64,000 nt of DNA from positions 992,001-1,056,000 of the forward strand of contig NZ_CP036515.1 in NCBI RefSeq assembly GCF_004323635.1. Direction: 5' to 3'. The notes under the pieces were generated by a model. The model searched no databases, had not been told where the DNA came from, and saw nothing but the letters and a program-made list of their open reading frames with translations. Below, one piece after another: positions 28,147 through 64,000 of the stretch. How positions within the stretch are numbered: position 1 is the stretch's first letter; each line of letters starts with the position of its first letter. A program made the position numbers and the translations under genes. The DNA is from Lichenihabitans psoromatis (lineage in GTDB: Bacteria > Pseudomonadota > Alphaproteobacteria > Rhizobiales > Beijerinckiaceae).

Positions 28147-28160
28147 CGCGATCTCCAAAG

Positions 28161-37057: not shown

Positions 37058-37229
37058 CCGCCTCGATCCTGCAGCCTGTCCCGCGATCGCCATCCGGTGG
37101 GTTGTCTCGCGCGCTCCACCGCTTCGATCACGCCTGTGGCAGCGGCTCGATCCCGATGAAGCCCCTCCGCCAACTCCGATGTTGGCAAGGATCGTGCTTC
37201 ATGTAGGTTGGGTTGCAGTCCACACGCGA

Positions 37230-39072: not shown

Positions 39073-39076
<4 letters not shown>
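38210..39076 (+). CDS. Dipeptide/oligopeptide-type ABC transporter permease (DppC-like)
   Basis: A 288-residue permease. It has the N-terminal cytoplasmic tail and single first helix (FLVGFVIVLFWIFCATIG), the DppC signature HWFGTDQLGRDMFARVIAGS, and the coupling loop VAAARLRGENAIYIMV. It ends with LSFLGVGLQPPSPDWG, a DppC hallmark. Start and stop overlap the neighbours as ATGA, so the transporter is one translational unit. Confidence 0.93.
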
Positions 39077-41130
<2,054 letters not shown>

Positions 41131-45493: not shown

Positions 45494-45557
45494 GGCGTGG
45501 TTGCAGTAGTTGTGATTGCCTGATTCAGTTCTCCTGGGCGAAGGGGAGAACGCGGAC

Positions 45558-46928
45558 ATGATGGGCAGACAGTCGATCCCGCAGGAGCCGCTATTTTACG
45601 GGTTCAACCTGGAGCGGCATGTTCCGGCCGGTCATCTGCTTCGCTCTGTCGATCGTTTCGTCGACCTGGAGGGCGTGCGGGAGCATCTTCGACCCTTCTA
45701 CAGCACGACCGGGCGGCCATCGATCGATCCGGAACTGCTGCTCCGGATGCTAATCGTGGGCTATTGCTCCGGCATCCGCTCAGAGAGGCGGCTCTGTGAA
45801 GAGGTCCACCTCAATCTGGCTTACCGTTGGTTTTGCGGGCTCGGCTTGGATGGCGCGGTGCCCGATCACTCGACCTTCTCGAAGAACCGTCACGGCCGGT
45901 TCAGAGAGAGCGACGTCCTACGCAAGCTTTTTGAGGACGTGCTCGGTCGCTGCATAGCGGAAGGCCTGGTCGGCGGTGAAGGCTTTGCCGTTGATGGCAG
46001 CCTGATCGCGGCCGATGCCCATCGTCAGCGCGGCGTGCCGAAGGCAGAGGACCTCGACCCGACTGCGAACAGGGCCGTGGCGGAGTACCTTGCCACCCTG
46101 GACGATGCTGCTTTCGGGGCCGCCACACCGGTCGAGCCGAAGTTCATTTCACCGGTCGATCCGGCGGCACGCTGGACCGCCTCCTGGGGTGGACCTGCGT
46201 TCTACGCTTACTGCACGAACTATCTCGTCGACGTGCAACATGCTGTCATTGTCGATGTAGAGCCCTCGACCGCCGTGCGTCAGGCCGAGGTCACTGCCGC
46301 CAGAACCATGATCGAACGGGCTTACGACCGCCTTGCGTTGTGGCCGCAGCGGCTGATCGCCGACACGGGGTACGGCTCAGCCGAGATGCTTGAGTGGCTG
46401 GTCCACGAGCGTGGGATCGAGCCGCACATTCCCGTGTTCGACAAATCCGCGCGCAAGGACGGCACCTTCAGTCGTTCAGAATTCACGTACGATCGTCATG
46501 CCGATGCCTACACCTGCCCCGCCGGGAAGCCGCTGCGGCAGCGACAAAAGACGTCTCTGAAGACGCGCCCGCTTGTGGATCAGGACGGCATGATGCGCTA
46601 CCGCGCCAGCAAGCGCGATTGCGAGATCTGCTCACTGAAGCCGCGATGCTGCCCCAACACCCCCGCCCGCAAGATCCCACGTTCCATCTCCGAAGGCGCT
46701 CGCGACATGGCACGCGATATCGCCAAGACCGACGCCTATCAGACCTCGCGTCGTGAAAGGAAGAAGGTCGAAATGCTGTTCGCGCACCTCAAACGCATTC
46801 TGAAGCTCGATCGATTACGGCTCCGCGGTCCAAACGGTGCCAGAGACGAGTTCCACCTCGCCGCTACAGCCCAGAACCTCCGCAAGCTCGCCAAGCTCAT
46901 CCCGCTGCAAATGCCAGCGACAGCGTGA
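45558..46928 (+). CDS. IS1182-type transposase
   Basis: A 456-residue DDE transposase. The N-terminal DUF772-type domain (PSIDPELLLRMLIVGYCSG, HLNLAYRWFCGLGLDG, PDHSTFSKNRHGRF) is followed by the catalytic part: first Asp in AVDGSLIAADAHRQ, second Asp in LIADTGYGSAE, and Glu in KKVEMLFAHLKR. A cysteine cluster CEICSLKPRCC before the last motif is typical of this family. The ATG at 45558 has AAGGGGAGA upstream. The frame is complete, so the element may be active. Confidence 0.9.
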   Translation: MMGRQSIPQEPLFYGFNLERHVPAGHLLRSVDRFVDLEGVREHLRPFYSTTGRPSIDPELLLRMLIVGYCSGIRSERRLCEEVHLNLAYRWFCGLGLDGAVPDHSTFSKNRHGRFRESDVLRKLFEDVLGRCIAEGLVGGEGFAVDGSLIAADAHRQRGVPKAEDLDPTANRAVAEYLATLDDAAFGAATPVEPKFISPVDPAARWTASWGGPAFYAYCTNYLVDVQHAVIVDVEPSTAVRQAEVTAARTMIERAYDRLALWPQRLIADTGYGSAEMLEWLVHERGIEPHIPVFDKSARKDGTFSRSEFTYDRHADAYTCPAGKPLRQRQKTSLKTRPLVDQDGMMRYRASKRDCEICSLKPRCCPNTPARKIPRSISEGARDMARDIAKTDAYQTSRRERKKVEMLFAHLKRILKLDRLRLRGPNGARDEFHLAATAQNLRKLAKLIPLQMPATA

Positions 46929-48605: not shown

Positions 48606-49655
48606 TTAAACGACCGAGCTGGAGAGACCCGCCCGCTCGTCGGCGACGATCCAGTCCATATAGGCGTGGAAGGCCTCGCGCATCGGGCGTGGGCGCCAGC
48701 CCGTGTCGGCCACGATGCGGCTGATGTCGTAGGCGCCCCACATGCCATCGCGGGAGGGCGAATCCTGCAGGATGTCGGCATCGGCCGGAGCCGTGACTTC
48801 GGCCCGAACAGCCGGCACCTTCTCGGCCGCCCAGCCAATCATATCGCCGATCGTCACGGTTCGCCCGAGCGCGATGTTATAGACCGCGTGGGTCAGGCTT
48901 TCTGCATCGAGCAGCGCAATGATACCATGCGCGACATCTTCGGCGTGGAGATAATCGCCGACGCCATCGAGCGTGTTGGTGCGAATCGGGCCGGGGCGAT
49001 CGAGCGCCAGATGCGCGATGCGGTTCGGCAGGTGACGGAAATCTCGGCTCGCCGTGGTCCGGTCCATGGTGCCGTAGACCGAGGACAAGCGCACCGACAC
49101 GGTCGAGAGGCCGAACAACACGCCGAACCGCTCGGCCACGAGTTCGGCCGCCTGCTTCGAGATGCCGTAGAGCCGCTTCGGCGCGACATAGCCATCCTCA
49201 GGCAGTGGCGCGCCGGCCGTATCCGGGCCATGGTGCCGATAGACCGCCCCTGACGAGACATAGACGAAACGCGTCATGCCGGGCTGCTGCCGGGCCCAGT
49301 CGAGCAGATGGACCGTACCCATCAGGTTGACGTTCATGATCTCGACCGGCATTACGGCCTCGGGCTCGCGCGCCGCCTCGGCGACGCTGCCGCGCGAGAT
49401 CGGCGTGATGGTCGCGCCATGCACCACGACGGTGATGCCGTGCGGTGCAAGAGCCGCGTGCCATGTGGACGGATCGGTCACGTCGCCGATTACTACCGAC
49501 AATCGATCTGCCACGGGAGCGAAATAGGCTCGCGCGGCAACATCGAGGGGGGCTCGATCGAGGATGACGGCTCGGCGGGTCGGGTCGGCGTCGAGCCACA
49601 CCCGCGCCAGCACACTCATGGCGAAGCCGGTCGCGCCGGTGATCAGAAGCGTCAT
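48606..49655 (-). CDS. NAD-dependent epimerase/dehydratase-family protein (extended SDR)
   Basis: A 349-residue extended short-chain dehydrogenase. The Rossmann motif is LLITGATGFAMSVLARV, the catalytic pair is in LYGISKQAAE (YxxxK) after VYVSSGAVYR, and a C-terminal substrate lobe follows. Sugar-acid or erythronate-type dehydrogenases look similar, and the gluconolactonase-like gene downstream (88 bases) would fit such a path. It is divergent from the SDR operon at 49743. Confidence 0.85.
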   Translation of the reverse strand: MTLLITGATGFAMSVLARVWLDADPTRRAVILDRAPLDVAARAYFAPVADRLSVVIGDVTDPSTWHAALAPHGITVVVHGATITPISRGSVAEAAREPEAVMPVEIMNVNLMGTVHLLDWARQQPGMTRFVYVSSGAVYRHHGPDTAGAPLPEDGYVAPKRLYGISKQAAELVAERFGVLFGLSTVSVRLSSVYGTMDRTTASRDFRHLPNRIAHLALDRPGPIRTNTLDGVGDYLHAEDVAHGIIALLDAESLTHAVYNIALGRTVTIGDMIGWAAEKVPAVRAEVTAPADADILQDSPSRDGMWGAYDISRIVADTGWRPRPMREAFHAYMDWIVADERAGLSSSVV

Positions 49656-49742: not shown

Positions 49743-50516
49743 ATGATCGTTCTGACCGACAAGACCGCGATTGTCACCGGGTCGAGTTCCGGCATCGGAC
49801 GCGCCATCGCGCTGCGCTTCGCCGCCGCCGGCGCGCGTCTCGTACTGGCCGACCTGACCGAAGCAGCGTTGGACGGCGGCGCGACCACCAGCGCGCTCAT
49901 CGCCGAAGCCGGCGGCACCGCGTTGTTCTACCGAACGGACGTCGCGGTCTGGGCCGAGGTCGATGCGCTCGTCGGCAAGGCTGTGGCCGACTTCGGCCGG
50001 CTCGACGTGATGGTCAATAATGCCGCGACCTATTCGGGCACGGCACTGCTCGACACGTCCGAAGCGCAATGGGCCAAAGTGCTGGGCGTCAACCTCACCG
50101 GCCTGTTCCATGGCTGCAAGCGCGCCGTGCAGCAGATGATCGGCCAAGAGCCGCGCGCCGAGGTTCGCGGGCGCATCATCAATCTCGGATCGCAGCAGGG
50201 CATCGTCACGGCGCCGCGCGATTGCGCCTATGGGGTCAGCAAGGCAGGTGCCATCTACCTGACCAAACAGATCGCAGTCGATTATGCAGCCGACCTCATC
50301 GTGTGCAACACGCTGTCGCCCGGCAAGATCGAGACGGGCGCGCCCGGCCTGCCGACCGATCCGGCCTTGCTCGACAACGCCCGCCGACGCACGCCGTGGC
50401 CGCGCCTTGGCCGCCCGGACGACATCGCCAATGCGGCGCTGTTTCTCGCCAGCGACCTGTCGACCTATATGACGGGCAGCAATCTCGTGGTCGACGGCGG
50501 ATGGCTCGCCCGATGA
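49743..50516 (+). CDS. Classical short-chain dehydrogenase/reductase (SDR)
   Basis: A 257-residue NAD(P)-dependent oxidoreductase. It has [13 protein letters not shown] (cofactor), NNAATYSGT, and the catalytic tyrosine and lysine in [13 protein letters not shown]. It ends with [15 protein letters not shown]. First gene of a plus-strand operon of SDR, SDR, amidohydrolase and SDR; its stop overlaps the next start as ATGA. Substrate unknown. Confidence 0.9.
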
Positions 50517-51283
50517 GCGCCGTCGACACCGCCAAGCGGCTCGTGGATCGCCGCATCCTGGTCAGTGGAGCCGCCAGCGGCATCGGCGCGGCGCTGGTCC
50601 ATCGCCTCGTGGCGGAAGGCGCGCGGGTCGTCGCGGCCGATCTCGATCGGACGCGGGTCGCCGAACTCGCCGCGACATGCCCGCCAGGCCGGGTGCTGCC
50701 GGTCGCCTGCGACGTCACCGATGCGGCCGCAGGCCAGGCGGCTGTCGCGGTCGCGATGTCGCACTGGGGCGGGCTCGACGGCTTCGTGCATAATGCGGCG
50801 GCGCGCTCGGTCGACGGCACGGTGGTGACGCTCGATGCGGCCGACTGGCGCGCCGAAATGGCCGTGACGCTGGATGGCGCCTTTCTGATGAGCAAGGCGG
50901 TGGTGCCGGCGCTTGTGCAAGCGGGCGGCGGGTCGATCGTGCTGATCGCCTCGCAACTCGGTCACGTCGCGGTCGGTCAGGCCGTTGCCTATTGCGTCGC
51001 CAAAGCGGGCCTCATTCATCTGGCGAAACTGATGGCGGTCGATCACGCCGGCGACAACATCCGCGTCAACAGCCTGTCGCCGGGCGCGGTCGGTACCGCC
51101 CGCCTGCTGCAACGCTGGCCCGACCTCGCTGCGGCCGATGCGGGCCTCGGGCCGGCGCATCTGCTCGGGCGTATCGGCCGGCCTGACGAGATCGCGGCCG
51201 CGATCGCGTTTCTGCTCTCGGACGATGCGGGCTTCGTGACCGGAACGGATCTGTTGGTCGACGGCGGATATACGACGCGATGA
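50513..51283 (+). CDS. Classical short-chain dehydrogenase/reductase (SDR)
   Basis: A 256-residue SDR. The start at 50513 is fixed by the ATGA overlap with the previous gene. Cofactor motif [26 protein letters not shown], catalytic [14 protein letters not shown] (Tyr and Lys present), and [15 protein letters not shown] at the end. Coupled by ATGA to the amidohydrolase. Two SDRs in tandem suggest successive or stereo-complementary oxidations of one substrate. Confidence 0.9.
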
Positions 51284-52635
51284 CGGCACCGAGCCAGCAC
51301 CCGTTCGACCTCGTGCTGCGCGGCGGTACTGTCGTCGAGGCGACCGGTCGGGCCAGAGTCGATCTGGCGATCCGCGACGGACGGATCGCGGCGCAGCTCC
51401 GGCCGGGGGAACCCGCCGAAGCAACGATGATGCTGGATATGAGCGGGCGGCTTTTGCTGCCGGGGCTTGTCGACGCGCATGCCCATCTGCGTGAGCCGGG
51501 GTTGACCCATAAGGAGGATTTCGCCTCCGGCACCCAGGCCGCAGCCGCCGGCGGCGTTACGACCATCCTCGACATGCCGACCGACGAGCCCTGGACCGAC
51601 ACGCCGGAGTTGCTTCGCGCCAAAATGGCGATGACGATGGGACGCCTGCATGTCGATGTGGGATTTCAGGTCGCGATGCGGCGCGACACCACGGATTGCC
51701 GTGCGTTGCGGGATGCCGGAGCCGTATCGTTCGAGGTGTTCACCGCCGATGTGCCAGCGATCTACCGCCATGACACGATCGACGCCCTTGCGGCGGCGGT
51801 CGGCCGCATCGCCGCGGTCGACGGGCTGATCGGCCTATCGCCCGGCGATCAATCCTTGATCGACGCCGCCAATCGGGACCCGACGGGCAGCATCGCGGCC
51901 TATCTGGCTAGCCGCCCGCCCCTGGCCGAAGCCAACGGCATCGCGCGCGCCATCCTGGTGGCGGCCGATCGCGGCGGTCGGGTCCACATCCGACAGAGCA
52001 ATTCGGCCCTCGGTCTCGACACGTGGCAGCGCATGCGCGACTTGGCCGACGTCACCATCGAGACGACCGTGCAATGCCTGCTGCTGACGGCCGAGCGCTA
52101 TACCGACCTCGGAGCCGCCATCAAGGCGTCGCCACCGTTCCGAACCGACGCCGGTCGCCTCGCTCTGCTGGCGGCGGTCCGCGACGGCACAGTCGATATC
52201 GTCGCGACCGATCACGCCCCTCATACGCCTGCCGAAAAAGCCGCTCCGGTCGCGCATTTTGCCGATATACCGGGCGGCCTGCCCGGGCTGCAGACGCTTC
52301 TGCCCTGCATGCTGCATCTCGTCGGGCGTGGCGATCTCACGCTCGGCGATGTCGTTCGGGTCTGCGCCACTAATCCTGCTGTCCGGTTCGGCCTTCTCGG
52401 GCGCAAGGGCGCGCTGACGGTCGGCCATGACGCCGACATTCTGGTGCTCGATCCCGCCATCACGAGCACCATCAGGAACGAGGATCAACGATCCAAAGCC
52501 GGACCGACCCCATTCGCGGGCTTGACGTTTCCATTCCGGCTCGACCGCGTCTTGCTGCGCGGCCGAAGCATTTTCACCCATGACGGCGTGTCGACCTCGG
52601 CGACCGGCCTCGTGCAACGACCCAACAGCGGCTGA
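51280..52635 (+). CDS. Dihydroorotase/hydantoinase-like amidohydrolase lacking several metal ligands
   Basis: A 451-residue amidohydrolase-superfamily protein. It keeps HAHLREPG (H67, H69), [16 protein letters not shown] and the late aspartate in [13 protein letters not shown] (D311). The usual carboxylated lysine is replaced by E152 (SFEVFTADV), the HAE histidine is missing (the matching segment reads GLSPGDQS), and the HxxHxS histidine is Q239 (VHIRQSNS). It may use one metal, or have another function such as a scaffold for a partner. It is the third gene of the SDR operon. The two hydantoinases of the window keep all ligands. Confidence 0.85.
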
Positions 52636-52663
52636 CGCCGCTTTCACAAAAGGATTTCGGCTC

Positions 52664-53449
52664 ATGGATCTCGGATTGTCGGACAAGCGCGTTCTCGTGC
52701 TGGGCGCCAGCAAGGGGCTCGGCCAAGCCATCGCGCTCGCCATGGTGGCCGAAGGCGCAACCGTCATGGCGGCGGCCCGTTCGGTCGAGCGGATCGAGGC
52801 TTGGCGCGCGGCGCTGCCCCCGGATGCAGCGGCCCGCGTAAGCGTCCATGAGGTTGACTTGGCCGAGATGGCCAGCGTCGATCGCCTGGTCGACGCGGTG
52901 CTGGCCGCGGGTGGCGCCGACGTGCTCATCAACAATGGCGGCGGACCGGCCCCGGGCGGCGTGGTCGGCACACCGACAGACGCGTGGAACAAGGGGTTTG
53001 CCAGCATGGCGGCGTCGTTGTTCCACCTGACCGACCGGCTCATCACGCCGATGATCGAAAAGCGGTGGGGCCGCATCGTCACGATCGGCTCGTCCGGCAT
53101 CGAGCAGCCGATCCCCAACCTCGCGATCTCCAACGCGATTCGCGCCAGCGTCGCCGGTTGGTCGAAAAGCCTCGCGAACGAGGTCGCCGAGCATGGCATC
53201 ACGGTCAATATGGTGCTGCCCGGCCGCGTCGCGACCGAGCGGGTCGATAGCCTCGACCAGAACCGCGCCAGCAAGACCAATCAATCCATCGACGCCGTGC
53301 GGCAGCAATCGCGCGCCGAGATCCCGGCCAAGCGCTACGGGACGCCGGAGGAATTTGCGGCCGTCGTGACGTTCCTGGCCGGCACACCCGCCTCCTACGT
53401 GACCGGCAGCATGATCCGCGTCGATGGTGGCGCCATCCGCAGTATCTGA
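52664..53449 (+). CDS. SDR-family protein with non-canonical catalytic motif
   Basis: A 261-residue SDR with VLVLGASKGLGQAIALAMVA (cofactor site), INNGGGPAPGG and a C-terminal VTGSMIRVDGGAIRSI. Where the YxxxK motif should be, it reads PIPNLAISNAIRAS, with Ser and Arg at the Tyr and Lys positions. An SDR subgroup with this sequence (NLALSNxLR) is known, but its reactions are poorly described. AAAAGGA precedes the ATG at 52664. It follows the amidohydrolase by 28 bases. Confidence 0.85.
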   Translation: MDLGLSDKRVLVLGASKGLGQAIALAMVAEGATVMAAARSVERIEAWRAALPPDAAARVSVHEVDLAEMASVDRLVDAVLAAGGADVLINNGGGPAPGGVVGTPTDAWNKGFASMAASLFHLTDRLITPMIEKRWGRIVTIGSSGIEQPIPNLAISNAIRASVAGWSKSLANEVAEHGITVNMVLPGRVATERVDSLDQNRASKTNQSIDAVRQQSRAEIPAKRYGTPEEFAAVVTFLAGTPASYVTGSMIRVDGGAIRSI

Positions 53450-53470: not shown

Positions 53471-54397
53471 TCAGTCTTCAGGCGGCCCGGCACGCTCTGC
53501 GATCAGCCGGTACTCCGCCGGGCGGCGATAGCGAGCAAAGTCGAAATTGACGCGTCGGCAGGCGGAGATCAGGTCGAGGTCGGCGCGATACACCACCACC
53601 TCGTCGCCGATCGACAGGGCCTGCGCGGCGATTTCGCCCGTCGGCGCGATGATGCAGGAGCCGCCGATCAGCGCCTGCCCGTCCTCGCTCCCGGCTTTCG
53701 CGGCGGCCGCGACCCAGAGCGTGTTCTGGTAGGCGCCGGCCTGCATCGGCAGGTGATTGTGGAACATGCGAAGGTGGGCGAGCGCCGGCGCCTCATCGAG
53801 CAACATCGGCGTGTTGTAGCCGATCAACGCCACCTCGGCGCCACCGAGGCACAACATCCGATAGGTTTCCGGCCAGCGCCTGTCGTTGCACAAAGCCAGA
53901 CCCACCCGTACGTCGCCGAACCGGAACACCGGAAACCCGACATTACCCGGCTCGAAGTAGCGCCGCTCGAGATGCACGGTGGTTCCGGGCTCCGGCGTCT
54001 CCTGGCCGGGCACGTGCATCTTGCGATACCGCCCGACCAGAGCCCCGTCGCGTCCGATCAGGTCCATCGTGTTGAAGCGCCGCACGCGGCCATTCTCGAC
54101 CACGCGTTCCGCATAGCCGAGTGCGAAACCGACGCTGAGCCGCCGCGCCGCATCATAAAGCGGCTGGGTCTCTGGCCCGGGACAGGACGTCTCGTAAAAC
54201 GCCTCGATCTCATCGTCGTCGAGCATCCATCGCGGAAAGAAAGTGGTGAGGGCCAATTCGGGAAACACCGCGAGGTCCGCACCAGCAGCGGCGGCCTGCT
54301 CCAACAGATGTACCAACCGCCCCACCGTTTCGGCGCGCGAAGCGGCGCGCTGCACCGGCCCGGTCTGACAGACCGCGAGCGTTAGGCTTCGAGCCAT
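53471..54397 (-). CDS. N-carbamoyl-D-amino acid hydrolase (carbon-nitrogen hydrolase family)
   Basis: Releases ammonia and carbon dioxide from an N-carbamoyl amino acid to give the free, usually D-, amino acid. The 308-residue length and the triad positions match characterised D-carbamoylases: E47 in FPELALTTFFPRW, K126 in YRKMHVPG and C170 in ALCNDRRWPE. The FFPRW and NDRRWPE stretches are specific to this subgroup within the nitrilase superfamily. It overlaps the 3' end of the hydantoinase gene by 16 bases, so the two act in sequence: ring opening, then decarbamoylation. Confidence 0.9.
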   Translation of the reverse strand: MARSLTLAVCQTGPVQRAASRAETVGRLVHLLEQAAAAGADLAVFPELALTTFFPRWMLDDDEIEAFYETSCPGPETQPLYDAARRLSVGFALGYAERVVENGRVRRFNTMDLIGRDGALVGRYRKMHVPGQETPEPGTTVHLERRYFEPGNVGFPVFRFGDVRVGLALCNDRRWPETYRMLCLGGAEVALIGYNTPMLLDEAPALAHLRMFHNHLPMQAGAYQNTLWVAAAAKAGSEDGQALIGGSCIIAPTGEIAAQALSIGDEVVVYRADLDLISACRRVNFDFARYRRPAEYRLIAERAGPPED

Positions 54398-55812
54398 GGC
54401 GTCGTCTCCTCGATGGGGCGGCGCGCCGGATCGGCCGGAACCGCATGACGGGGCAAAAATTGCCCGGTCGGGGTCGCGTCATGCAGGATGCCGTCGCGGA
54501 TTACGAAGCGACCCCGGACCAGCACGTCGGTTGGCTTGCCGGTGAGCCATAGCCCCTCATAGGGCGTGAAATCGACCGCCGAATGCTGCGCTTCATGGCG
54601 AACCTGCCATCGCGCGTCCGGGTCCCAGAGTACCAGATCGGCATCGAGCCCGACCGCGATCCGGCCTTTCCGGTCATCGAGGCCATACAGCATCGCGGCT
54701 GCCTGCCCGGCCAAGGCGAGGTAACGCGCGAGCGTCAGGCGCCCGCTCAGCAAGCCCTCGGAGAACAGGATCGGCAATCGGGTTTCGAGCCCCGGAACGC
54801 CATTCGCGGCAGTGGTGAAGGACGGCTCGGAGGCCGGCGCGATTTTGTCGGCCATGCGATAAGGCGAATGATCGGACGACCAGAGCGCAATGTCGCCCGT
54901 CGAGAGAGCTTGCCACAGCGCGTCCTGGCTGGCGCGGGCGCGCGGAGGCGGCGAGAAGATGAAGCGGGCCGCCTCCTGCGGCGGCCCGTCGAGGTCGGCG
55001 GCGGTCGAGAGAAGATATTGCGGGCAGGTTTCCGCGATCACATCGGCCCCCCGCCCCCGGGCGCGACGCACCTCCTCGGCCGATTGCGCGCAGGAGACAT
55101 GGACGATGACGAGGCGCGCGCCGGTGATTTCGGCGAGGGTCGCGGCCCGGTGGGTCGCCTCGCGCTCGAAGGCTTCGGCATGCGCCACGGCATGGTAGCG
55201 GAACCCGGTGCGGCCGAGCGCCACCAGACGCCCAGTGGTGCGGCGAATGCCGGCATCATTCTCGGCATGGACCATCACGGTCATGCCGCGAGGACGAGCC
55301 CCATCCATGATGGCGAGCATCAGGTCGTCGGAGACCGCGAAGCCCCGATAGGTCATGAACGCTTTGACGGACGGCACGCCGCGCGCGGCCAACCGGTCCA
55401 ATTGCGCCTCGACGTCGGAGCCGGTGGCTTCGGTGAACACGCCGTGCAGGCCGTAATCGACGACGGAGCGGCCGCCCGCGCAAGCCAACGACCGATCGAG
55501 CGCCGCCAGCGTCGTCATGCCCGGTCCCGGCATGGCGAAAGGCACGATGCAGGTCGTGCCGCCGAAGGCGGCGCTGATCGAACCGGTCGAGAAGTCATCG
55601 GCGGTATCGACTCCGCCCCAAGTCGGCTGATCGAGATGGCAATGGGCGTCGATGCCGCCCGGCATCACCCACCGGCCGGCCGCCTCGATGACCCTGCGTC
55701 CCGTCAGGCCCTGGCCGAGTGCCGCGATGCGGCCGTTCGCGATGCCGATGTCGCAGTCGGCCCATCCCTCGTCGAGGGCGACGCGGCCGCCTGTGATGAC
55801 GATATCATACAT
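54382..55812 (-). CDS. D-hydantoinase/dihydropyrimidinase
   Basis: Opens 5-substituted hydantoins to N-carbamoyl amino acids. The 476-residue protein has all ligands: HCHLDQP near residue 60, Lys in SVKAFMTYRG, His in MVHAENDAG, His in LVIVHVSCA and Asp in WSSDHSPY; ETCPQYLLST is present. The start at 55812 gives MYDIVITGG, typical for the family. It precedes and overlaps the carbamoylase gene, and is divergent from the cupin-lyase fusion gene. It is paralogous to 26740-28146. Confidence 0.92.
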   Translation of the reverse strand: MYDIVITGGRVALDEGWADCDIGIANGRIAALGQGLTGRRVIEAAGRWVMPGGIDAHCHLDQPTWGGVDTADDFSTGSISAAFGGTTCIVPFAMPGPGMTTLAALDRSLACAGGRSVVDYGLHGVFTEATGSDVEAQLDRLAARGVPSVKAFMTYRGFAVSDDLMLAIMDGARPRGMTVMVHAENDAGIRRTTGRLVALGRTGFRYHAVAHAEAFEREATHRAATLAEITGARLVIVHVSCAQSAEEVRRARGRGADVIAETCPQYLLSTAADLDGPPQEAARFIFSPPPRARASQDALWQALSTGDIALWSSDHSPYRMADKIAPASEPSFTTAANGVPGLETRLPILFSEGLLSGRLTLARYLALAGQAAAMLYGLDDRKGRIAVGLDADLVLWDPDARWQVRHEAQHSAVDFTPYEGLWLTGKPTDVLVRGRFVIRDGILHDATPTGQFLPRHAVPADPARRPIEETTPWLEA

Positions 55813-56007
55813 GGCGATCAGCCGGTGGCGTGGCGATGAAGCACCAGCTTTCGTGCTGGGGGACGACGACGAACGCGAAACCCGCAATCTCACAAGCGGC
55901 TCCGGCGCGATCGATGATGATTCGAGGCTCGGTCAGCAAACGGTCTCCTGGCGTTAAGGCCGGACAGGTCTTAGGCTCGGCATGACAGGCGTCCCTCCGG
56001 AGACCGC

Positions 56008-58170
56008 ATGACGACCGTGACCGATCCTAGCGCCGCTGCGGAGGTTTTGACCATCGTGGCGCTCGCTTATGGCCTGCTCGACACCATGCCGACCGCGCAA
56101 CCTTTTCTTGCAGCGTGGCCGGACCAGTACGACGGTCGGCCGTTCGCCCCGCAGGGTTGCCCCGTCTTGACATGGCTCGACGAGATCGCCGCCAACACCA
56201 CGCCCGCCACCGCGCCTCTGGTCGCTGCTCTCTCGACCGCCGCCGCGGCCCTGGCCTGGCGTCAATCCTACACGGCCGCCGATTTCGGCGCCGCCTTCCT
56301 TGATGGCTACGGCTGGACCGAATTGATCGGCACCAAGGGGCCGGTCCCAAGCGCGACCATCGCCTGCGGCTTTCTCATGCTCGGCCCGTGGACGCAGTAT
56401 CCCGCTCACGCGCATGCGGCCGAAGAGCTTTACGTGCCGCTTTCGGGCACGGCTCTCTGGACACGGGGCGACGAGGCTCCCGTCCGCCATCGTCCCGGCG
56501 CGCCGATCCACCACCCGGCCTGGATCTCGCATGCCATGTCGACCGAAGCCGAGCCTCTCCTGGCGCTTTACCTGTGGCGGGGCGGCGATCTTGCCGCGAA
56601 ACCGCAGATCACCGGCCGCTCGTCTCCCTTCTCTTACCCCCCGAAAGCCTCCGGCATGCCCATCGCGCTTGGACGAGACCGCCTCACCGTCGCCGACGTC
56701 AGACAGGTGGCCCGAGACGGGGTCGTGGCCACACTCGATCCGGACGCCGCGCGCACCATGCTGGCGTCGCAAGCCGTGCTGCAGGACTGGCTTCAGGCGG
56801 ATCGGCCGGTTTACGGTCTGACGCGCGGCCTCGGCAATCAAGCCACGATCGCGATTCCCTCCGAGGATCGCCGCCTGTTCAGCGAAGCGATGCTGAAGGC
56901 GAGAGCCTCGGGCGCGGGTGGCTCGTTCGCGCCCGACATCGTTCGGGCGGCCCTTTTCGTTCGCGCCGCGACGCTAGCGCGGGGCGGCGCGGGTGCTCGG
57001 CCTCTCATCGTCGAGACCCAACTCGCGATGCTGAACCAGAACGTCACGCCGCGCGTGCCGCAAATTGGCTCGATCGGCACATCGGATCTCATGCTCTGCG
57101 CCAATATGGGCCTGCCGCTGATCGGACTCGGCGAGGCAACATTCGAGGGCAAGCTGCTGCCGGGTGCCGAGGCGATGCGGCGCGCCGGGATCGGCACCGT
57201 GCAACTGACCGAAAAGGAAGGTCTGGCGCTCTGTAGTTCGAATGCCGTGTCGATCGGCTATGGCGCGCTGGTGATCGCCGATCTCCTCGATCTTCTGGAT
57301 CTCGCCGATGCCGTGTTGGCCATGACCTACGAGGCATTCATGGGCAACCCGAGCCCGTTCGATGCGCGGGTCGCGGCCCATCATCCGGCGCCCGGGCAGG
57401 TCGAGGCGGCCGAGCGGCTGCGTCGGATGTTGGCCGGATCGGCCCTGTTCGAGCCGGGCGTTCCCCGTCGCGTGCAAGACCCGATCAGCCTGCGCTGCGC
57501 CACCCACGTGCATGGCGCCGCCCGAACCGCGCTGCGCTGGGCGCAGGACGCTGTCGATGCCGAACTGAACGCGGCGGCCGACAATCCGCTGATCCTGATC
57601 GACGATGCGGAGATCCTGTCGACGGGCAATTTTCACACGGCCGCCATGGCGGTCGCGTTCGACGCCCTTCGCCTGGCGCTGGCGCAACTCGGCACGATCG
57701 CGTCCCAGCGCACCGCGCGTCTGCTCGATCCGGAGGTGTCCGGGCTCGGCGGTCTGCTGACCCGGATCGGGGTCACCAAATCCGGCGTGGGTCTCCTCAG
57801 CCTCGTCAGTCACACGCTGGATCGCGAGTCGCGGGCTTGCTCGGCCCCCGTATCGAACGATGGGGCGACACCATTCGGCGTCGAGGATCAGGCTCCTATG
57901 ACCCTGTCGGCGGTGCGACGGACGGCTGATCAGATCGGTTTTCTGCAGCAGATCCTCGCCTGCGAAATGATGGTGGCGGCCCAGGCGCTCGACATACGGC
58001 CGTTGCGGCCCTCCGCGCCGGTCGTCGCGGCGCTTTATGGCTTCGTTCGGCGTCATGTCACGGTTCTCGACGAGGATCGCAGCACGACGGCCGATCTCGA
58101 AAACCTGCATCACGCGATCCGCGACGGCGGCGCTCTCGCCGTTGTCCGCACCAGCCTCGATATGGCGTGA
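56008..58170 (+). CDS. Fusion of DMSP-lyase-like cupin and aromatic ammonia-lyase-like domain with altered active site
   Basis: A 720-residue two-domain protein. Residues ~1-205 resemble the DddL/DMSP-lyase cupin family, with the metal site YPAHAHAAEELYVPLSG (H134, H136, E140) and HHPAWISHAM (H168, H169, H175) and the LALYLWRGGDL ending. Residues ~215-720 have the histidine/phenylalanine ammonia-lyase fold: VYGLTRGLGNQ (loop Y269), GEATFEGKLLPGAEAM, EKEGLALCSSNAV, QDPISLRC (R496), LNAAADNPL and GVEDQAPM (E626). The MIO-forming Ala-Ser-Gly is Thr-Ser-Asp (T358-D360), the usual active-site Asn is Ser (S410), and the usual Tyr of QDxYSLRC is I493. A MIO-free lyase is therefore likely. GGAG precedes the ATG. 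Substrate unknown; the binding-protein gene follows. Confidence 0.85.
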   Translation: MTTVTDPSAAAEVLTIVALAYGLLDTMPTAQPFLAAWPDQYDGRPFAPQGCPVLTWLDEIAANTTPATAPLVAALSTAAAALAWRQSYTAADFGAAFLDGYGWTELIGTKGPVPSATIACGFLMLGPWTQYPAHAHAAEELYVPLSGTALWTRGDEAPVRHRPGAPIHHPAWISHAMSTEAEPLLALYLWRGGDLAAKPQITGRSSPFSYPPKASGMPIALGRDRLTVADVRQVARDGVVATLDPDAARTMLASQAVLQDWLQADRPVYGLTRGLGNQATIAIPSEDRRLFSEAMLKARASGAGGSFAPDIVRAALFVRAATLARGGAGARPLIVETQLAMLNQNVTPRVPQIGSIGTSDLMLCANMGLPLIGLGEATFEGKLLPGAEAMRRAGIGTVQLTEKEGLALCSSNAVSIGYGALVIADLLDLLDLADAVLAMTYEAFMGNPSPFDARVAAHHPAPGQVEAAERLRRMLAGSALFEPGVPRRVQDPISLRCATHVHGAARTALRWAQDAVDAELNAAADNPLILIDDAEILSTGNFHTAAMAVAFDALRLALAQLGTIASQRTARLLDPEVSGLGGLLTRIGVTKSGVGLLSLVSHTLDRESRACSAPVSNDGATPFGVEDQAPMTLSAVRRTADQIGFLQQILACEMMVAAQALDIRPLRPSAPVVAALYGFVRRHVTVLDEDRSTTADLENLHHAIRDGGALAVVRTSLDMA

Positions 58171-58284
58171 ATCGTCACGCGTGTGGCCCGCTTCCTGCTA
58201 AGGTCGAGCCGCTCAGAGCCGAGCCGCTTCAAAGGTCGAGCGTCTCCGAAGGTCGCGTCAAGAACTCAACAAGGTGGGATCGCC

Positions 58285-59946
58285 ATGAACCGGATTTCGA
58301 ACGCCTATAGCCGCTTGCGCGGACAGCTCGGTGCCGTCGAGAACGATCTGATTGATGAATTCGTAAGCGGTAAGATCGATCGCCGCACATTTCTGCGCCA
58401 CGGCAGCATGTTGGGGCTTTCGCTTCCCCTCTTGGGCGGTATGGCGGGCGGGGTCGGTCTGCTGTCGGGATCGACGTCGGCGCGGGCCGAGCCGAAGGCT
58501 GGCGCCACGATCCGGGTCGCGGCGGTTACTCCCGCCGCAGCCATGAACCCGGTCAGCATCGCCGATCAGGGCGGCCTGACGCTGCTGATTCAGACCGGAG
58601 AATTTCTGTGCGTCACGCAGCCCGATCTGACGCTGAAACCCTCTCTTGCGCTCAGCTGGTCGCATAACGAGGATAGTTCGGTCTGGACGTTCAAGCTCCG
58701 CAGCGGCGTGACATACCACACCGGGCAGACCTTCAAGGCCGATGACGTGATCGCGACGATCGATCGTTTGGCCGACCCCAAAAACGCATCCAATGCGCTG
58801 TCGGCCTTCAAGGGCATCCTGTCCAAGGGCAATACCAAGAAGGTCGATGACCTGACGGTCGAGTTCCACCTCGATGCGCCCTATGGCAGCTTCCCTTACG
58901 TGGTGTCGTCGGACAATTACAATTGCATCATGCTGCCGGCCGATTTCGCCGGCGATTTCGAGAAGGACTGGACCGGCACGGGGCCGTTCAAGCTCGAAAA
59001 ATATACGCCGAAGGTCGGGGCGAATTTCGTCCGGTTCGACGGCTATTGGGGTGAAAAGTCTCTGCCCGATCGGGTCGAATTCGTGTTCTACGACGCGCTC
59101 CAGCCGCGGGTGCTCGCACTGCAGGGCGGCCAAGCCGACATGATCGATCAGGTTCCGGTCGCGGGCGGCCAAGCGCTGCTGAACGATCCGAACTTCACGG
59201 TCATTCGCGAGAAGAGCGCCGCGCATGAGCAAGTCCATATGCGCTGCGACACCGGGCCGTTCCAGGACAAGCGCGTGCGTCAAGCCATGGCGCTCAGCAT
59301 CGATCGCACCAAGCTTGTGGCGGGCCTGTTCCGGGGCTTTGCGGCGGTCGGCAACGACAGCCCGTTCGCGCCCGCTTTCCCGTCCACCGATACGACTGTT
59401 CCGCAACGCAAGCAGGACCTGCAGAAGGCCAAGCAGCTGATGGAAGCGGCCGGCGTCGGCAAGGGCTTCAAGGTGACCCTGACGACCGAGCGCTATATCG
59501 AAATCCCCGATTACGCCATTCTGCTGCAAAATTTCGCACGGCCGCTCGGGATCGACATCACGCTCAACGTCGAGTCGCAGGACGCCTATTACGGCAAGGC
59601 GGTGTTCGGGCAGTCGGATTGGCTCGACAGCACCATGGGCATCACCGACTATGGCCAGCGCGGCGTGCCGAACGTCTACTTGCGGGCCCCGCTGCTGAGC
59701 GATGGAACCTGGAACGGCGCGCATTTCAAGAACCCCGAATACGACACCCTGGTGACCCAATTCGGCAAAACCGGCGACATCGGCGGTCAACGCGAAGTCG
59801 CGGGCAAGATCCAGAACCTGCTGCTCGACGAAACGCCGATCATCTTCGCTTATTTCTACGACTATCTCGTCGTGACCAAGAAGACGCTGGTCGGCATCCC
59901 GCCGATCGCCAACCGTCTGTTCCTGGATCGCGCCGGCTTCGCTTGA
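58285..59946 (+). CDS. Dipeptide/oligopeptide-type periplasmic binding protein with Tat signal
   Basis: A 553-residue family 5 solute-binding protein. The N-terminus carries a twin-arginine signal (KIDRRTFLRHGSMLGLSLPL) with an unusually long n-region of about 36 residues, so it is probably exported folded. The mature part has WTFKLRSGVTYHTGQTFKADD and TGTGPFKLEKYTP, both family signatures. No permease or ATPase genes accompany it; the DppBC-D/F genes at 37230-41130 lack a binding protein and could be its partners. It is 114 bases downstream of the cupin-lyase fusion, probably one transcript, ending at the terminator at 59958. Confidence 0.9.
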   Translation: MNRISNAYSRLRGQLGAVENDLIDEFVSGKIDRRTFLRHGSMLGLSLPLLGGMAGGVGLLSGSTSARAEPKAGATIRVAAVTPAAAMNPVSIADQGGLTLLIQTGEFLCVTQPDLTLKPSLALSWSHNEDSSVWTFKLRSGVTYHTGQTFKADDVIATIDRLADPKNASNALSAFKGILSKGNTKKVDDLTVEFHLDAPYGSFPYVVSSDNYNCIMLPADFAGDFEKDWTGTGPFKLEKYTPKVGANFVRFDGYWGEKSLPDRVEFVFYDALQPRVLALQGGQADMIDQVPVAGGQALLNDPNFTVIREKSAAHEQVHMRCDTGPFQDKRVRQAMALSIDRTKLVAGLFRGFAAVGNDSPFAPAFPSTDTTVPQRKQDLQKAKQLMEAAGVGKGFKVTLTTERYIEIPDYAILLQNFARPLGIDITLNVESQDAYYGKAVFGQSDWLDSTMGITDYGQRGVPNVYLRAPLLSDGTWNGAHFKNPEYDTLVTQFGKTGDIGGQREVAGKIQNLLLDETPIIFAYFYDYLVVTKKTLVGIPPIANRLFLDRAGFA

Positions 59947-60025: not shown

Positions 60026-60940
60026 GTGATCTCCTCGCCGCGTGACCTCGTCGGATACGGGTCGGAACCGCCGCATCCGCAATGGCCGAACAGGGCGCGC
60101 CTCGCGCTCAATGTCGTGGTCAATTACGAGGAAGGCGCCGAATATACGCTGCTGAACGGTGATGATCGGCCCGAGACGATCCTATCAGAGGTCGGTTCTG
60201 GCGCTCCCGCGATGGGCACCCGGGACCTCGCGATGGAGTCGATGTATGATTATGGCGGCCGTGCCGGGGTGTGGCGGCTTCTGCGCGCGCTGACGGATCG
60301 TGGCATCGTGCCGACCTGCTACGCCATCGGGCTGGCGTTTGAGCAGAACCCGCGCGTCGCGGAGGCCTTCGCGAAAGCGGGTTGCGATTTTGTCGGACAT
60401 GGCTGGCGCTGGATCGACTATGCGAGGGTATCGATCGATGAGGAGCGCGACCATATCGGCCGCTGCCTCGAGACGATCGAGCGGCTGACCGGTGAGCGAC
60501 CCGCCGGCTGGTACACGGGGCGGATGAGCCTCGACACGCGGCGCCTCGCAGTCGAGCACGGCATTCTTTACGACAGCGACGCTTATTGTGACGACCTGCC
60601 GTTCTGGACGCCGGTCGGCCGCACAAGCCATCTCGTCGTGCCGCATGCCTTCGACACCAACGACAGTCGCATGGCGCGCAACCAGGATCTCGCAGCCGGA
60701 TCGGACTTCTTCGACTATCTCCGCGACAGTTTCGACGTGCTCTACGCTGAAGGCCTGACTGCCCCGAAGATGATGACCGTCAGCCTTCATTGCAGGCTGG
60801 CCGGCAGGCCGGGGCGCATCGCAGCCCTGACCCGGTTTCTGGAGCATGTGTTGGCTCACGACCGGGTCTGGATCTGTCGCCGCATCGAGATCGCACGGCA
60901 TTGGCGGGCGACGTTTCCGCCGCCAGCCGAGACGCCTTAA
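60026..60940 (+). CDS. puuE: PuuE-type allantoinase (polysaccharide-deacetylase-fold)
   Basis: Metal-independent allantoinase family of the polysaccharide deacetylase fold, which opens the allantoin hydantoin ring to allantoate. The 304-residue protein starts RDLVGYGSEPPHPQWPNRAR and continues NVVVNYEEGAEYTLLNGD, both hallmarks of PuuE. FVGHGWRWIDY holds the active-site His/Trp region, and PAGWYTGRMSLDTRRL follows. The start is a GTG at 60026. A related N-carbamoyl or amide substrate cannot be excluded. Its TAA shares the TTAA at 60937-60940 with the stop of the convergent molybdenum hydroxylase gene. Confidence 0.86.
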   Translation: MISSPRDLVGYGSEPPHPQWPNRARLALNVVVNYEEGAEYTLLNGDDRPETILSEVGSGAPAMGTRDLAMESMYDYGGRAGVWRLLRALTDRGIVPTCYAIGLAFEQNPRVAEAFAKAGCDFVGHGWRWIDYARVSIDEERDHIGRCLETIERLTGERPAGWYTGRMSLDTRRLAVEHGILYDSDAYCDDLPFWTPVGRTSHLVVPHAFDTNDSRMARNQDLAAGSDFFDYLRDSFDVLYAEGLTAPKMMTVSLHCRLAGRPGRIAALTRFLEHVLAHDRVWICRRIEIARHWRATFPPPAETP

Positions 60941-63177
60941 AGCAGTTTCTCCAAGCGGATCGGAGTTTCGCGGGCACGAATCCCGGTCGCATGCCAGACT
61001 GCATTGCCGATCGCGCCTGCCGTGCCGGTCACGCCGATCTCGCCGACGCCCTTGATGCCGAGCGCATTGACGTGGGAATCATGTTCCTCGATCAGAATGG
61101 CCTCGAGCGACGGCACGTCGGCATTCACCGGCACGTGATATTCGGCGAGATTGGCGTTGACGATGCGGCCCGTGCGACGATCCATGGTGGCTCGCTCCTG
61201 CAGCGCGAACGAAATCCCCCAGATCATACCGCCGAAATATTGGCTGCGAACCATGCGGGGATTGATGACCCGGCCGGCCGCGAACGCCCCGACCAGACGC
61301 GATACGCGCACCTGACCAAGATCGGGGTCGACCTTTACCTCTGCGAAGACCGCGCCATGCGCGTGCATCGCATAATCCTTCTGGGTCGCGGGGTCGGCTG
61401 CAGCCTGCCCCTTGCCCTGGATCGAGGCCTGCCCAGCACGGGTGAGAATCGTCTCGTAACTCTCACTCCGGCTTTCGTCATCGCGTCGGAAGAGACGACC
61501 ATCGCGGGCCACGACACCCGTATTCCCAGCGCCATAGAGCGGCGAGCGGTCATCGTTGGTGGCAAGTTCCGCAAGTGCAGCGATCACGGCCCCACCCGCG
61601 TTATGGATCGCCGTGCCGGCCGTCGCCGTATGGGCCGATCCCCCCGCAATCCCGGCGTTGGGCAGGTCGGACGTCCCCATGTTGAACGTCAGCTTCTCGA
61701 GCGGCAGGCCAACCCCGTCAGCCGCGATCTGCGCCAGAGCGGTCCAGGCGCCCTGCCCCATGTCCTGGGCGCCGATATCGACCGTTCCGGTCCCATCGGC
61801 GCGAAGTTCGGCGCGCGCCTCGGCTTGAAACATCAGAGCCGGGAAGGTCGCGGTGCCGACTCCCCAGCCAACCAGAAGGCCGGCCTCGTCGCGCATCTGC
61901 CGTGAAGCGAGCGGTCGCCCCGCCCAACCAAAACGTTTCGCACCCTGCTCATAGCATTCACGCAGCGCCTTCGAGGAGAACGGCTTGCCCGACAGCGGCT
62001 CGGCCTCGGCATAGTTCTTAAGGCGAAATTCCAGCGGGTCCATGCCGCAGGCAAAGGCCATTTCGTCGATCGCGCCTTCCAGCGCCACGCTGCCCGACGC
62101 CTCGCCCGGTGCGCGCATGAACAGCGGCGTGCCGGTATCGAGGCGCACGGCCTCGTAGGTGGTCGACAGCGCCGGGGTGGCATACAGCGTGTGCGTGACG
62201 CCGCCGGCCGGTTCGAAGAAATCATCGAAGCTGCTGGAGGCCGCGACCGTGTGGTGATCGATCGCGGTCAACGATCCATCCGCCATGGCGCCCATTTTTA
62301 GCGTCTGTCGGGTCGGCGACCGATGGCCCACAGGCCCGTACATCTGGTCGCGGCGCAGCACCAGCTTGACCGGCTTGCCCACCAGCTTCGCCGCCATGAT
62401 GCCGAGAATTTGCGGCCCTGAAATCAAGCCCTTCGACCCGAAACCGCCACCCAGGAAGGGGCTGCGGATGAAGATGTCGGCGGCATCGATGCCGAACAAT
62501 CCGGCGATGCGGGCCTGAGCCATCGCCATGCCCTGGCTCGGCGTATCGATGGTGAGGTGATCGCCGTCCCATGCCGCGACGATCGCATGCGGCTCCATGG
62601 CATTGTGATATTGCGCCGGCGTATCGTAGGTCGCTTCGATGCGACGATCGGCCGACGCCAGTCCCGCTTCGACGTCGCCATGCGTGTCCTTGGAGGGCGA
62701 GCCGACCCCAACCGAATCCGGCACGAACCGAGGCGCGTCGTCGAAGTCGACCCGGGCGGTCTCGACGTCATAGGTGGGGTGAAGCAGCGCCGCGCCTTCG
62801 GTTGCGGCCTCGAGCGAGGTGGCGACCACGACCGCGATCGACTGATTGGCGTAACGAACCTGATCGTTCTGCAACAATTCCATTCTGAACGTGAAGGGCG
62901 TGCCCTTCAGGTCCGGATCCTGCGCAAGCGTCGGTGCATTAGCCGGCGTCATGACGTCGACGACGCCCGGATGAGCCTTGGCGGCCGCGAGATCGAGGGC
63001 GACGACCCGTCCCCGCGCGGTCGTGCTGGTGGCGATCACGGCATAGAGCATATCGGCGGGGTGATGGTCGGCCGCATAACGGGCGCGGCCCGTGACCTTG
63101 AGCATGCCTTCGGCACGGGTCAGCGATTGGCCGATGCTGGAGCCATGGCGAACGTGGACGGGAGCGGTGTCAGACAT
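60937..63177 (-). CDS. Molybdenum hydroxylase large subunit (PaoC/xanthine dehydrogenase family)
   Basis: Large, molybdopterin-binding subunit of an oxidoreductase that hydroxylates an aldehyde or N-heterocycle with water. The 746-residue protein has GKVTGRARYAADH-type N-terminal sequence (here LKVTGRARYAADHH), FLGGGFGSKG and MRAPGEASGSVALEG for the cofactor, VDIGAQDMGQG, and the catalytic glutamate in IKGVGEIGVTGTAGAIGN. AAGGAG lies 9 bases before the ATG at 63177. The order (this gene last, FAD subunit before it) matches PaoABC-type aldehyde oxidoreductases; an N-heterocycle substrate is equally possible in this ring-opening neighbourhood. Confidence 0.9.
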   Translation of the reverse strand: MSDTAPVHVRHGSSIGQSLTRAEGMLKVTGRARYAADHHPADMLYAVIATSTTARGRVVALDLAAAKAHPGVVDVMTPANAPTLAQDPDLKGTPFTFRMELLQNDQVRYANQSIAVVVATSLEAATEGAALLHPTYDVETARVDFDDAPRFVPDSVGVGSPSKDTHGDVEAGLASADRRIEATYDTPAQYHNAMEPHAIVAAWDGDHLTIDTPSQGMAMAQARIAGLFGIDAADIFIRSPFLGGGFGSKGLISGPQILGIMAAKLVGKPVKLVLRRDQMYGPVGHRSPTRQTLKMGAMADGSLTAIDHHTVAASSSFDDFFEPAGGVTHTLYATPALSTTYEAVRLDTGTPLFMRAPGEASGSVALEGAIDEMAFACGMDPLEFRLKNYAEAEPLSGKPFSSKALRECYEQGAKRFGWAGRPLASRQMRDEAGLLVGWGVGTATFPALMFQAEARAELRADGTGTVDIGAQDMGQGAWTALAQIAADGVGLPLEKLTFNMGTSDLPNAGIAGGSAHTATAGTAIHNAGGAVIAALAELATNDDRSPLYGAGNTGVVARDGRLFRRDDESRSESYETILTRAGQASIQGKGQAAADPATQKDYAMHAHGAVFAEVKVDPDLGQVRVSRLVGAFAAGRVINPRMVRSQYFGGMIWGISFALQERATMDRRTGRIVNANLAEYHVPVNADVPSLEAILIEEHDSHVNALGIKGVGEIGVTGTAGAIGNAVWHATGIRARETPIRLEKLL

Positions 63178-64000
63178 GAAGGGCGGCTCCTTCGGGTTGG
63201 GCAAAGACGGAAGCCGGCAAGGCGGGCATGTGCTCCGGCGTGCCACGGGCAGCGAGACTGATGGCCCGCGCGACGACACGGCGCGCGAGTTCGATTTTGG
63301 CGGCGTTGTGGCCGGATGGTTTGGCATCGGCTAGCGCCGCCGCCGCCGCTTCGGTGAACGCTGCCTCGCCCACGGTCTTTCCGACGAGAACGCGCTCCGC
63401 GTCACGGGCGCGCCAGGGTTTCAGCGCCACACTGCCGAGCGCCACACGCGCCTCGACGATCGTCGATCCGTCGAGCTTGAGCGCCACGGCCGCCGACACG
63501 GCTGCGAATGCATAAGACGTGCGCTCGCGGACCTTGAGATAACGCGAATGATCGGCGAACCCGGCTGACGATGCCGGGATCCGAATCGCGACGACGAGAT
63601 CGCCGGGCTCGAGCACCGTCTCGCGCTGCGGCTCATCGCCGGGCAGGCGATAGAAGGCGTCGAGCGGAACGTCGCGGCGCCCGCCGCGCCCCTCAATTTC
63701 GACCACGGCATCGAGGGCGACGAGAGGCACACAGAAATCCGACGGATGGGTCGCGATACATTGGGGGCTCCACCCCAGCACCGCATGAAGATCGTTTTCA
63801 CCGCCCATGGCGTCGCAGCCTGATCCCGGCTCGCGTTTGTTGCAGGCGCTCGCAAGATCGAAGAAGTAGGCGCAGCGGGTGCGTTGCAGGAGATTACCGC
63901 CTGCGGTCGCCGCATTGCGAAGCTGCGCCGATGCGCCGGACAACAAAGCCTCCGCTACCGCGGGGTAGCGGGTCGAAACCTCGGGGTGATAGGCGATGTC
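63170..64000 (-). CDS. Molybdenum hydroxylase FAD-binding subunit (PaoB-like), 5' end outside the window
   Basis: Middle subunit of the same enzyme, open through the right edge (about 276 residues visible). The FAD site is ATAGGNLLQRTRC, followed by the cysteine set RCAYFFDLASACNKREPGSG with a further Cys, which in PaoB-type subunits binds a 4Fe-4S cluster. QCIATHPSDFCVPLVALDA and YLKVRERTSYAFAAVSAA follow. It overlaps the large-subunit start by 8 bases. The small 2Fe-2S subunit gene is expected just beyond position 64000. Confidence 0.9.
   Translation of the reverse strand, partial: DIAYHPEVSTRYPAVAEALLSGASAQLRNAATAGGNLLQRTRCAYFFDLASACNKREPGSGCDAMGGENDLHAVLGWSPQCIATHPSDFCVPLVALDAVVEIEGRGGRRDVPLDAFYRLPGDEPQRETVLEPGDLVVAIRIPASSAGFADHSRYLKVRERTSYAFAAVSAAVALKLDGSTIVEARVALGSVALKPWRARDAERVLVGKTVGEAAFTEAAAAALADAKPSGHNAAKIELARRVVARAISLAARGTPEHMPALPASVFAQPEGAALHV

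Follow-up and report, generated by a model that had tools for sequence, protein, structure and literature searches.

A DMSP-lyase-type cupin fused to a MIO-less HAL/PAL-fold domain in Lichenihabitans psoromatis, a candidate two-step onium/betaine eliminase

In histidine ammonia-lyase (HAL) the MIO cofactor is formed from an Ala-Ser-Gly loop, and Asn195 and Tyr280 are important residues. The PAL mutant S153A, which lacks MIO, is practically inactive (PMC3903478), and ergothionase is a MIO-free trimethylamine lyase and a functional precedent for MIO loss in the HAL fold (PMC13405746). The metal residues of cupin DMSP lyases are two His, one Glu and one His, accompanied by two motif-1 tyrosines that are special to these enzymes (PMC5395565). 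Here we describe a gene that joins both folds in one chain.

The gene lies in a 64,000-nucleotide stretch of the Lichenihabitans psoromatis chromosome (contig NZ_CP036515.1, positions 992,001 to 1,056,000), referred to as the window, where a single open reading frame (56008..58170, +) encodes 720 residues. Pfam places PF16867 (DMSP_lyase) at residues 48-186 and PF00221 (Lyase_aromatic) at residues 226-681, both well over cut-off. A twin protein named from the same species (P0002) is also 720 residues long, is 98% identical and carries both domains, and the two-domain layout in one frame given in the preliminary description is thereby confirmed. A search for other proteins with both domains in the same order, proposed at the same time, returned P0002 only: among the 120 listed of 154 relatives in the protein collection the remaining 119 have PF00221 alone, and when the cupin was sought in 6664 candidates of 396-1260 residues P0002 was the sole match and no other fusion appeared. 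The fused form is present in one of the six Lichenihabitans-genus genomes searched, the window's own. A literature search judged by titles, with most subscription papers outside its reach, yielded no cupin-lyase fusion and no title suggesting one; with P0002 alone in both protein searches, a cupin fused to a HAL/PAL fold is apparently undescribed, as had been supposed. Chance pairing or a frameshift artefact was considered as an origin and is ruled out by the 98% identical twin together with the overlapping unfused genes of Lichenifustis flavocetrariae discussed below.

The cupin half comprises residues 1-205 (56008..56622, +) and matches PF16867 with 106 bits against a gathering score of 27. 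The two His and one Glu of motif 1 (H134, H136, E140), the His of motif 2 (H175), and the motif-1 tyrosines Y131 and Y142 are kept in all 120 relatives listed. In the first whole-chain model this half was poor, with pLDDT <50 over residues 100-209, probably because the alignment misplaced the cupin relatives, and the cupin was then modelled alone. The nearest fold is that of the cupin DMSP lyase DddQ (PDB 4b29, 4la2, 5jso), to which the query is ∼32% identical; unlike DddQ, it is fused to another enzyme and has ureide genes around it. Of the original label, a DddL-like cupin, the DMSP-lyase type therefore stands on the domain match, ligands and tyrosines, whereas DddL specifically gives way to DddQ; the domain search that might have shown an N-terminal part of some other kind returned PF16867 instead.

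The HAL/PAL-fold half comprises residues 217-720 (56656..58167, +; PF00221 fold). In the alignment its MIO loop is shortened to T358-S359-D360 (57079..57087, +) instead of Ala-Ser-Gly-Asp, with one residue missing between S359 and D360. Of 121 aligned rows, 118 likewise have a short loop, two have the full triad and one is unreadable at this position. Relative to the histidine ammonia-lyase HutH of P. putida (PDB 1b8f), the query lacks the Ala-Ser-Gly triad, and His83, Asn195 and Tyr280 are replaced by R299, S410 and I493, Arg299 occurring in 116 of the 121 rows. Residues Y269, Q490, R496, F542 and E626 are kept; for Tyr269 (beta-proton removal) and Arg496 (carboxylate holding) we assume that the roles carry over from HAL. 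The catalytic residues of both halves of the fused protein are intact and invariant among aligned relatives. The score against the NCBIfam hutH equivalog, 366.5 bits, falls below the cut-off of 539. Since the MIO-loop residue, Asn195 and Tyr280 are lost, as they are in ergothionase, the sequence makes it unlikely that this half is an ammonia-lyase, and ammonia as a leaving group, one of the options named at the outset, is unsupported given the absent triad and the unreached hutH cut-off.

The query shares with the Treponema denticola ergothionase (PDB 6s7j) the HAL fold, the shortened MIO loop, Ser at position 195, the lack of Tyr at position 280 (Leu in ergothionase, Ile in the query) and the conserved Tyr, Gln, Arg, Phe and Glu. 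However, identity is only 27%, ergothionase has no cupin, position 83 is His in ergothionase and Arg in the query, and the GWNKD stretch of ergothionase is missing from the query. In the tree the T. denticola ergothionase groups with a lyase of S. meliloti (support 100/99), and the query falls in a separate 35-row clade (99/96). Membership as a plain ergothionase is rejected on the clade, the Arg at 83 and the missing GWNKD, so the substrate of the query must differ from that of ergothionase, which is retained as a model of mechanism. Against the ErtD models of the ergothioneine pathway, the amidohydrolases of the window reach 225 bits at best, a long way short of the cut-offs of 600-650.

The fused gene is followed by a family-5 solute-binding protein of an ABC importer (58183..59946, +; PF00496, E 5.2e-72; true start probably downstream of 58183) and a PuuE-type allantoinase-like enzyme (60026..60940, +), which at 401.4 bits lies just under the TIGR03212 cut-off of 424.6. 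On its other side are a D-hydantoinase/dihydropyrimidinase (54382..55893, -; probable true start near 55812), with 444.5 bits to TIGR02033 (cut-off 393) and E 9.6e-102 to the D-hydantoinase PDB 1nfg; an N-carbamoyl-D-amino-acid hydrolase (53471..54397, -), which matches PDB 6lei with E 3e-100 over residues 1-304 and reaches no cut-off among the eight NCBIfam families listed; and a second cyclic amidohydrolase of allantoinase/dihydroorotase-like type (51280..52635, +; PF01979), under the cut-off of every NCBIfam family among 25 listed of 49. Three short-chain dehydrogenases (49743..50516, 50537..51283 and 52580..53449, all +; PF13561, E 1.2e-60, 2.8e-60 and 2.1e-41) and an NAD-dependent epimerase/dehydratase (48606..49655, -; PF01370, E 1.8e-32) complete the cluster. 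The remaining importer genes, two ABC permeases (36906-38213 and 38210-39076, +; PF00528) and a double ATPase (38935-41130, +; PF00005, PF08352), stand apart from it at 36.9-41.1 kb. That the neighbouring binding protein imports the substrate, as first suggested, is supported as a reading. Elsewhere in the window, molybdenum hydroxylase subunits, including a FAD subunit, lie behind the PuuE-like gene (60937-63946, -; PaoC-like at 547 bits against a cut-off of 1180), the large subunit having no match of >50% identity in three stretches of the Lichenifustis contig. Another dihydropyrimidinase (26740-29375, -; 749.6 bits, cut-off 647) adjoins a cysteine-desulfurase-like class-V aminotransferase; a binding protein of amino-acid type is encoded at 30955-31767.

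The same cluster occurs in Lichenifustis flavocetrariae, where cupin and lyase are two genes overlapping by ATGA (TGA into ATG) and the orthologs of the window cluster form one block, 53-88% identical. Identities are 83% and 88% for the binding protein (two pieces), 76% for the PuuE-type enzyme, 72% for the D-hydantoinase, 79% for the carbamoyl hydrolase, 63% for the second amidohydrolase, 82% and 79% for the first two dehydrogenases, 79% for the epimerase and 81%, 85% and 77% for the importer genes; the counterpart of the third dehydrogenase matches in two pieces. The lyase is directly followed by the binding protein, the permeases and ATPase come after the binding protein and PuuE, and the interval from hydantoinase to cupin holds genes for a RidA-type protein and a DAO-type oxidoreductase. 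A DUF772/DDE transposase (45516-46928, +) lies between the permease/ATPase genes and the rest of the cluster in the window, and may be why the importer is split there but not in Lichenifustis. The fusion is explained by the unfused, overlapping pair in this conserved block, which also suggests a common process for the two halves.

Genes of trimethylamine metabolism are present in both organisms. In L. psoromatis they lie at ∼8-24 kb of the same chromosome, ∼1 Mb from the fused gene, and comprise Tmm (838 bits, cut-off 675), Tdm (1270, 1100), a TMAO permease (886, 690), DmmA (121, 60) and GmaS (668, 470), gmaS and the permease gene being direct neighbours; genes that Pfam assigns to Glu_synthase and GXGXG are presumably mgs. 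The Lichenifustis orthologs of tdm, tmm, dmm, gcvT and the permease stop ∼1.3 kb ahead of the epimerase of the block, with a carbon-nitrogen hydrolase gene in between, and gmaS/mgs lie ∼7.5 kb past the importer genes; a single 57-kb contig carries them all, so the block there sits inside a trimethylamine locus. The rough probability of so small a distance arising by chance in a 7.5-Mb genome is <1%, for one genome; because the corresponding loci of L. psoromatis are ∼1 Mb apart, the adjacency is seen in Lichenifustis only. Tdm exceeds its cut-off in 10 of 149 family genomes and in none of 14 controls, and both carriers of the block are among the ten; the other eight have no close lyase relative at E 1e-70. 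In 20 lyase-centred stretches (L065-L084; flanks up to ∼10 kb, some on short contigs), trimethylamine genes occur only in the two from the Lichenifustis contig, the others giving at best GcvT-type tdm matches of 27-34%. Separately, two PF16867 cupins and one MIO-less lyase (L092 on G425:C75, L086 on G328:C1 and L073 of G373) lie near NADH:flavin oxidoreductases, which are 59% (L086b-L092) and 60% (L086a-L073) identical; those of L086 and L092 are two-domain proteins (PF00724 + PF07992), and we presume that the oxidoreductases of these loci resemble trimethylamine dehydrogenases.

A comparable association is found in S. meliloti, where plasmid NZ_CP085526 carries a DMSP-lyase-type cupin (190 bits), a MIO-less lyase and a family-5 binding protein within ∼5 kb, with permeases and ATPase next after the latter, and where cupin and lyase are also ∼3 kb apart on NC_003037 and NC_018683. 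In contrast to the window, cupin and lyase are separate, the lyase groups with ergothionase, and no hydantoinase is annotated in the 18 kb examined. By eye this lyase (L099:4434-6074) has a signal-peptide-like N-terminal stretch, so it is possibly periplasmic, which would be unusual for the HAL fold. Among the window's genome and 62 other cupin-bearing genomes (49 of 50 plus 13 of 18 over cut-off, the own genome and the weak G311, G405, G410 and G416 being excluded from the 62), coordinates judged by eye place cupin and lyase side by side in just two, the window's genome and Lichenifustis. In 24 of the 62, many of whose assemblies are fragmented, no PF00221 match was obtained at 1e-30, and one pair ∼19 kb apart (G597) was not counted as adjacent. 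Longest contigs of 92878, 17311 and 24342 are common to the lists of cupin and lyase relatives, which is only suggestive of pairing on the same contig. In the stretches examined, the Ensifer adhaerens cupin has the same kind of importer genes and no annotated lyase, and the Gemmobacter and Phyllobacterium cupins have no annotated HAL-fold lyase or trimethylamine genes.

Glycine-betaine-type (OpuAC) binding proteins lie within 10 kb of MIO-less lyases in Neorhizobium, Rhizobium sp. CC-CFT758, R. ruizarguesonis and Sodalis, all in branches other than that of the query. Five annotated loci of MIO-bearing lyases have hut-type or amino-acid contexts, and where a binding protein is present, at three of them, it is SBP_bac_3. 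OpuAC is thus found at four of five MIO-less and none of five MIO-bearing loci (p 0.05), for ten hand-picked loci after a MIO-less Streptomyces locus without annotation was dropped. Against this pattern, a MIO-less lyase of the L. psoromatis genome itself (in L084) adjoins SBP_bac_3, and those of L075 and L076 adjoin family-5 proteins. The L084 lyase (G000:C1:1901461-1902840; L084:9417-11060, -) has its MIO loop cut to G-S-V-G-Y, unlike two other copies in the genome with full Ala-Ser-Gly. The same G-S-V-G-Y loop is seen in the Neorhizobium (L116:11895-13436) and Sodalis (L121:7983-9512) lyases, which are 63% identical to one another and have an OpuAC-type importer on one side and an annotated CoA-transferase, hydroxyacyl-CoA dehydrogenase and enoyl-CoA hydratase on the other, neighbourhoods that look like a betaine-to-CoA-thioester pathway.

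The explanation that we favour, at somewhat short of an even chance, is that the DddQ-type cupin and the MIO-less, ergothionase-like lyase constitute a two-step onium/betaine eliminase that releases trimethylamine and feeds a D-hydantoinase/D-carbamoylase pathway, and that the gene arose by fusion of two operon neighbours within a restricted lineage. What we infer is that trimethylamine leaves, which class the substrate belongs to, what the cupin does and in which order the steps run. The compound taken up by the ABC importer would be small, rich in nitrogen and of betaine type; lichen fungi probably supply betaines, hercynine and ergothioneine among them. In the C-terminal half Tyr269 would remove the beta proton while Arg496 grips the carboxylate, and a leaving group already good enough to need no MIO activation, most likely trimethylamine, would depart. 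A second elimination, or else a related transfer of a proton, may fall to the cupin with its metal and two tyrosines, acting on either the same molecule or its product. The leftover ureide could then have its ring opened by the D-hydantoinase and be decarbamoylated and deaminated (by DAO and RidA in Lichenifustis), and trimethylamine would pass to Tmm, Tdm, Dmm and GmaS. An eliminase acting on an onium or betaine compound had been proposed from the outset and is supported as a reading of the sequences, the trimethylamine idea being strengthened by the MIO loss common with ergothionase and by the trimethylamine genes around the Lichenifustis cluster. Counting against it, the trimethylamine genes of L. 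psoromatis itself are ∼1 Mb off, eight of the ten tdm-bearing family genomes have no close lyase relative at E 1e-70, the lyase-centred stretches outside Lichenifustis give at best GcvT-type matches, and the query stands apart from ergothionase in its clade, at position 83 and in the missing GWNKD. The proposal is weakest on substrate identity, on the cupin reaction and on a common origin of ureide and trimethylamine in one molecule.

Several rival explanations bear on individual parts of this proposal. The MIO-less half might instead expel urea, a carbamoyl-amine, water or a thiol within a ureide (hydantoin/N-carbamoyl) pathway and have no role in trimethylamine release. We consider this unlikely but deserving of attention, as the D-hydantoinase, D-carbamoylase, allantoinase-like amidohydrolase and PuuE-like enzyme are immediate neighbours in both genomes; a Neorhizobium plasmid has an annotated dihydropyrimidinase, N-carbamoyl-D-amino acid hydrolase and family-5 importer with a MIO-less 'hutH' ∼13 kb off; and the prevalence of Arg299 points to a side group that is anionic or resembles a ureide. 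Against these observations stand the trimethylamine genes surrounding the Lichenifustis cluster, the OpuAC importers at four of five annotated MIO-less loci, and the known functional precedent for MIO loss in this fold, a trimethylamine lyase (PMC13405746). Moreover, in the same genome the MIO-bearing lyase of L071 (L071:9075-12078, C2) has directly behind it an amidohydrolase of hydantoinase/allantoinase-like type with 28-31% identity to the window's own, so that the link to amidohydrolases is not special to MIO-less lyases.

The cupin might also be something other than a lyase: within the 'lyase-like' group it could serve as an isomerase, hydratase or oxygenase that takes what the other half produces. 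We hold this possibility to be real if doubtful, and it is compatible with the favoured explanation for the lyase half. The family reportedly includes enzymes without known function besides DMSP lyases (by title, Lei et al. 2018), and PF16867 cupins have widely varying gene contexts; nevertheless, DddQ is the nearest fold, and the residues that PMC5395565 gives for cupin DMSP lyases are kept in every relative listed. That one half is a non-catalytic scaffold, the fusion merely fixing stoichiometry, would accord with its occurrence in only two closely related proteins, but seems improbable given the intact and invariant catalytic residues of both halves. Least probable, and already disfavoured, is a true bifunctional DMSP lyase and aromatic ammonia-lyase as the Pfam labels would have it, considering the missing MIO triad, the hutH score, and the near inactivity of MIO-lacking PAL S153A (PMC3903478).

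More broadly, though with greater doubt than attaches to the two-step eliminase itself, the MIO-less branch of the HAL fold may be a large undescribed family of betaine (quaternary-ammonium) lyases with the DddQ-type cupin as partner in more than one lineage, fused in Lichenihabitans into a tandem onium eliminase. Were this so, 'DMSP-lyase-like cupins of unknown function' would gain a role in the breakdown of nitrogen onium compounds, and the Lichenihabitans fusion would send trimethylamine and hydantoin into separate pathways. In a number of proteobacteria, members of the MIO-less branch carry the label 'histidine ammonia-lyase' although they lack the cofactor triad for ammonia release; if they release trimethylamine, soil, rhizosphere and lichens would contain a source of it that has gone uncounted. 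The natural fusion shows which enzyme is the physiological partner of a DddQ-type cupin, whose family includes members with unknown reactions, and because it joins both unknowns, cupin and lyase become testable with one protein.
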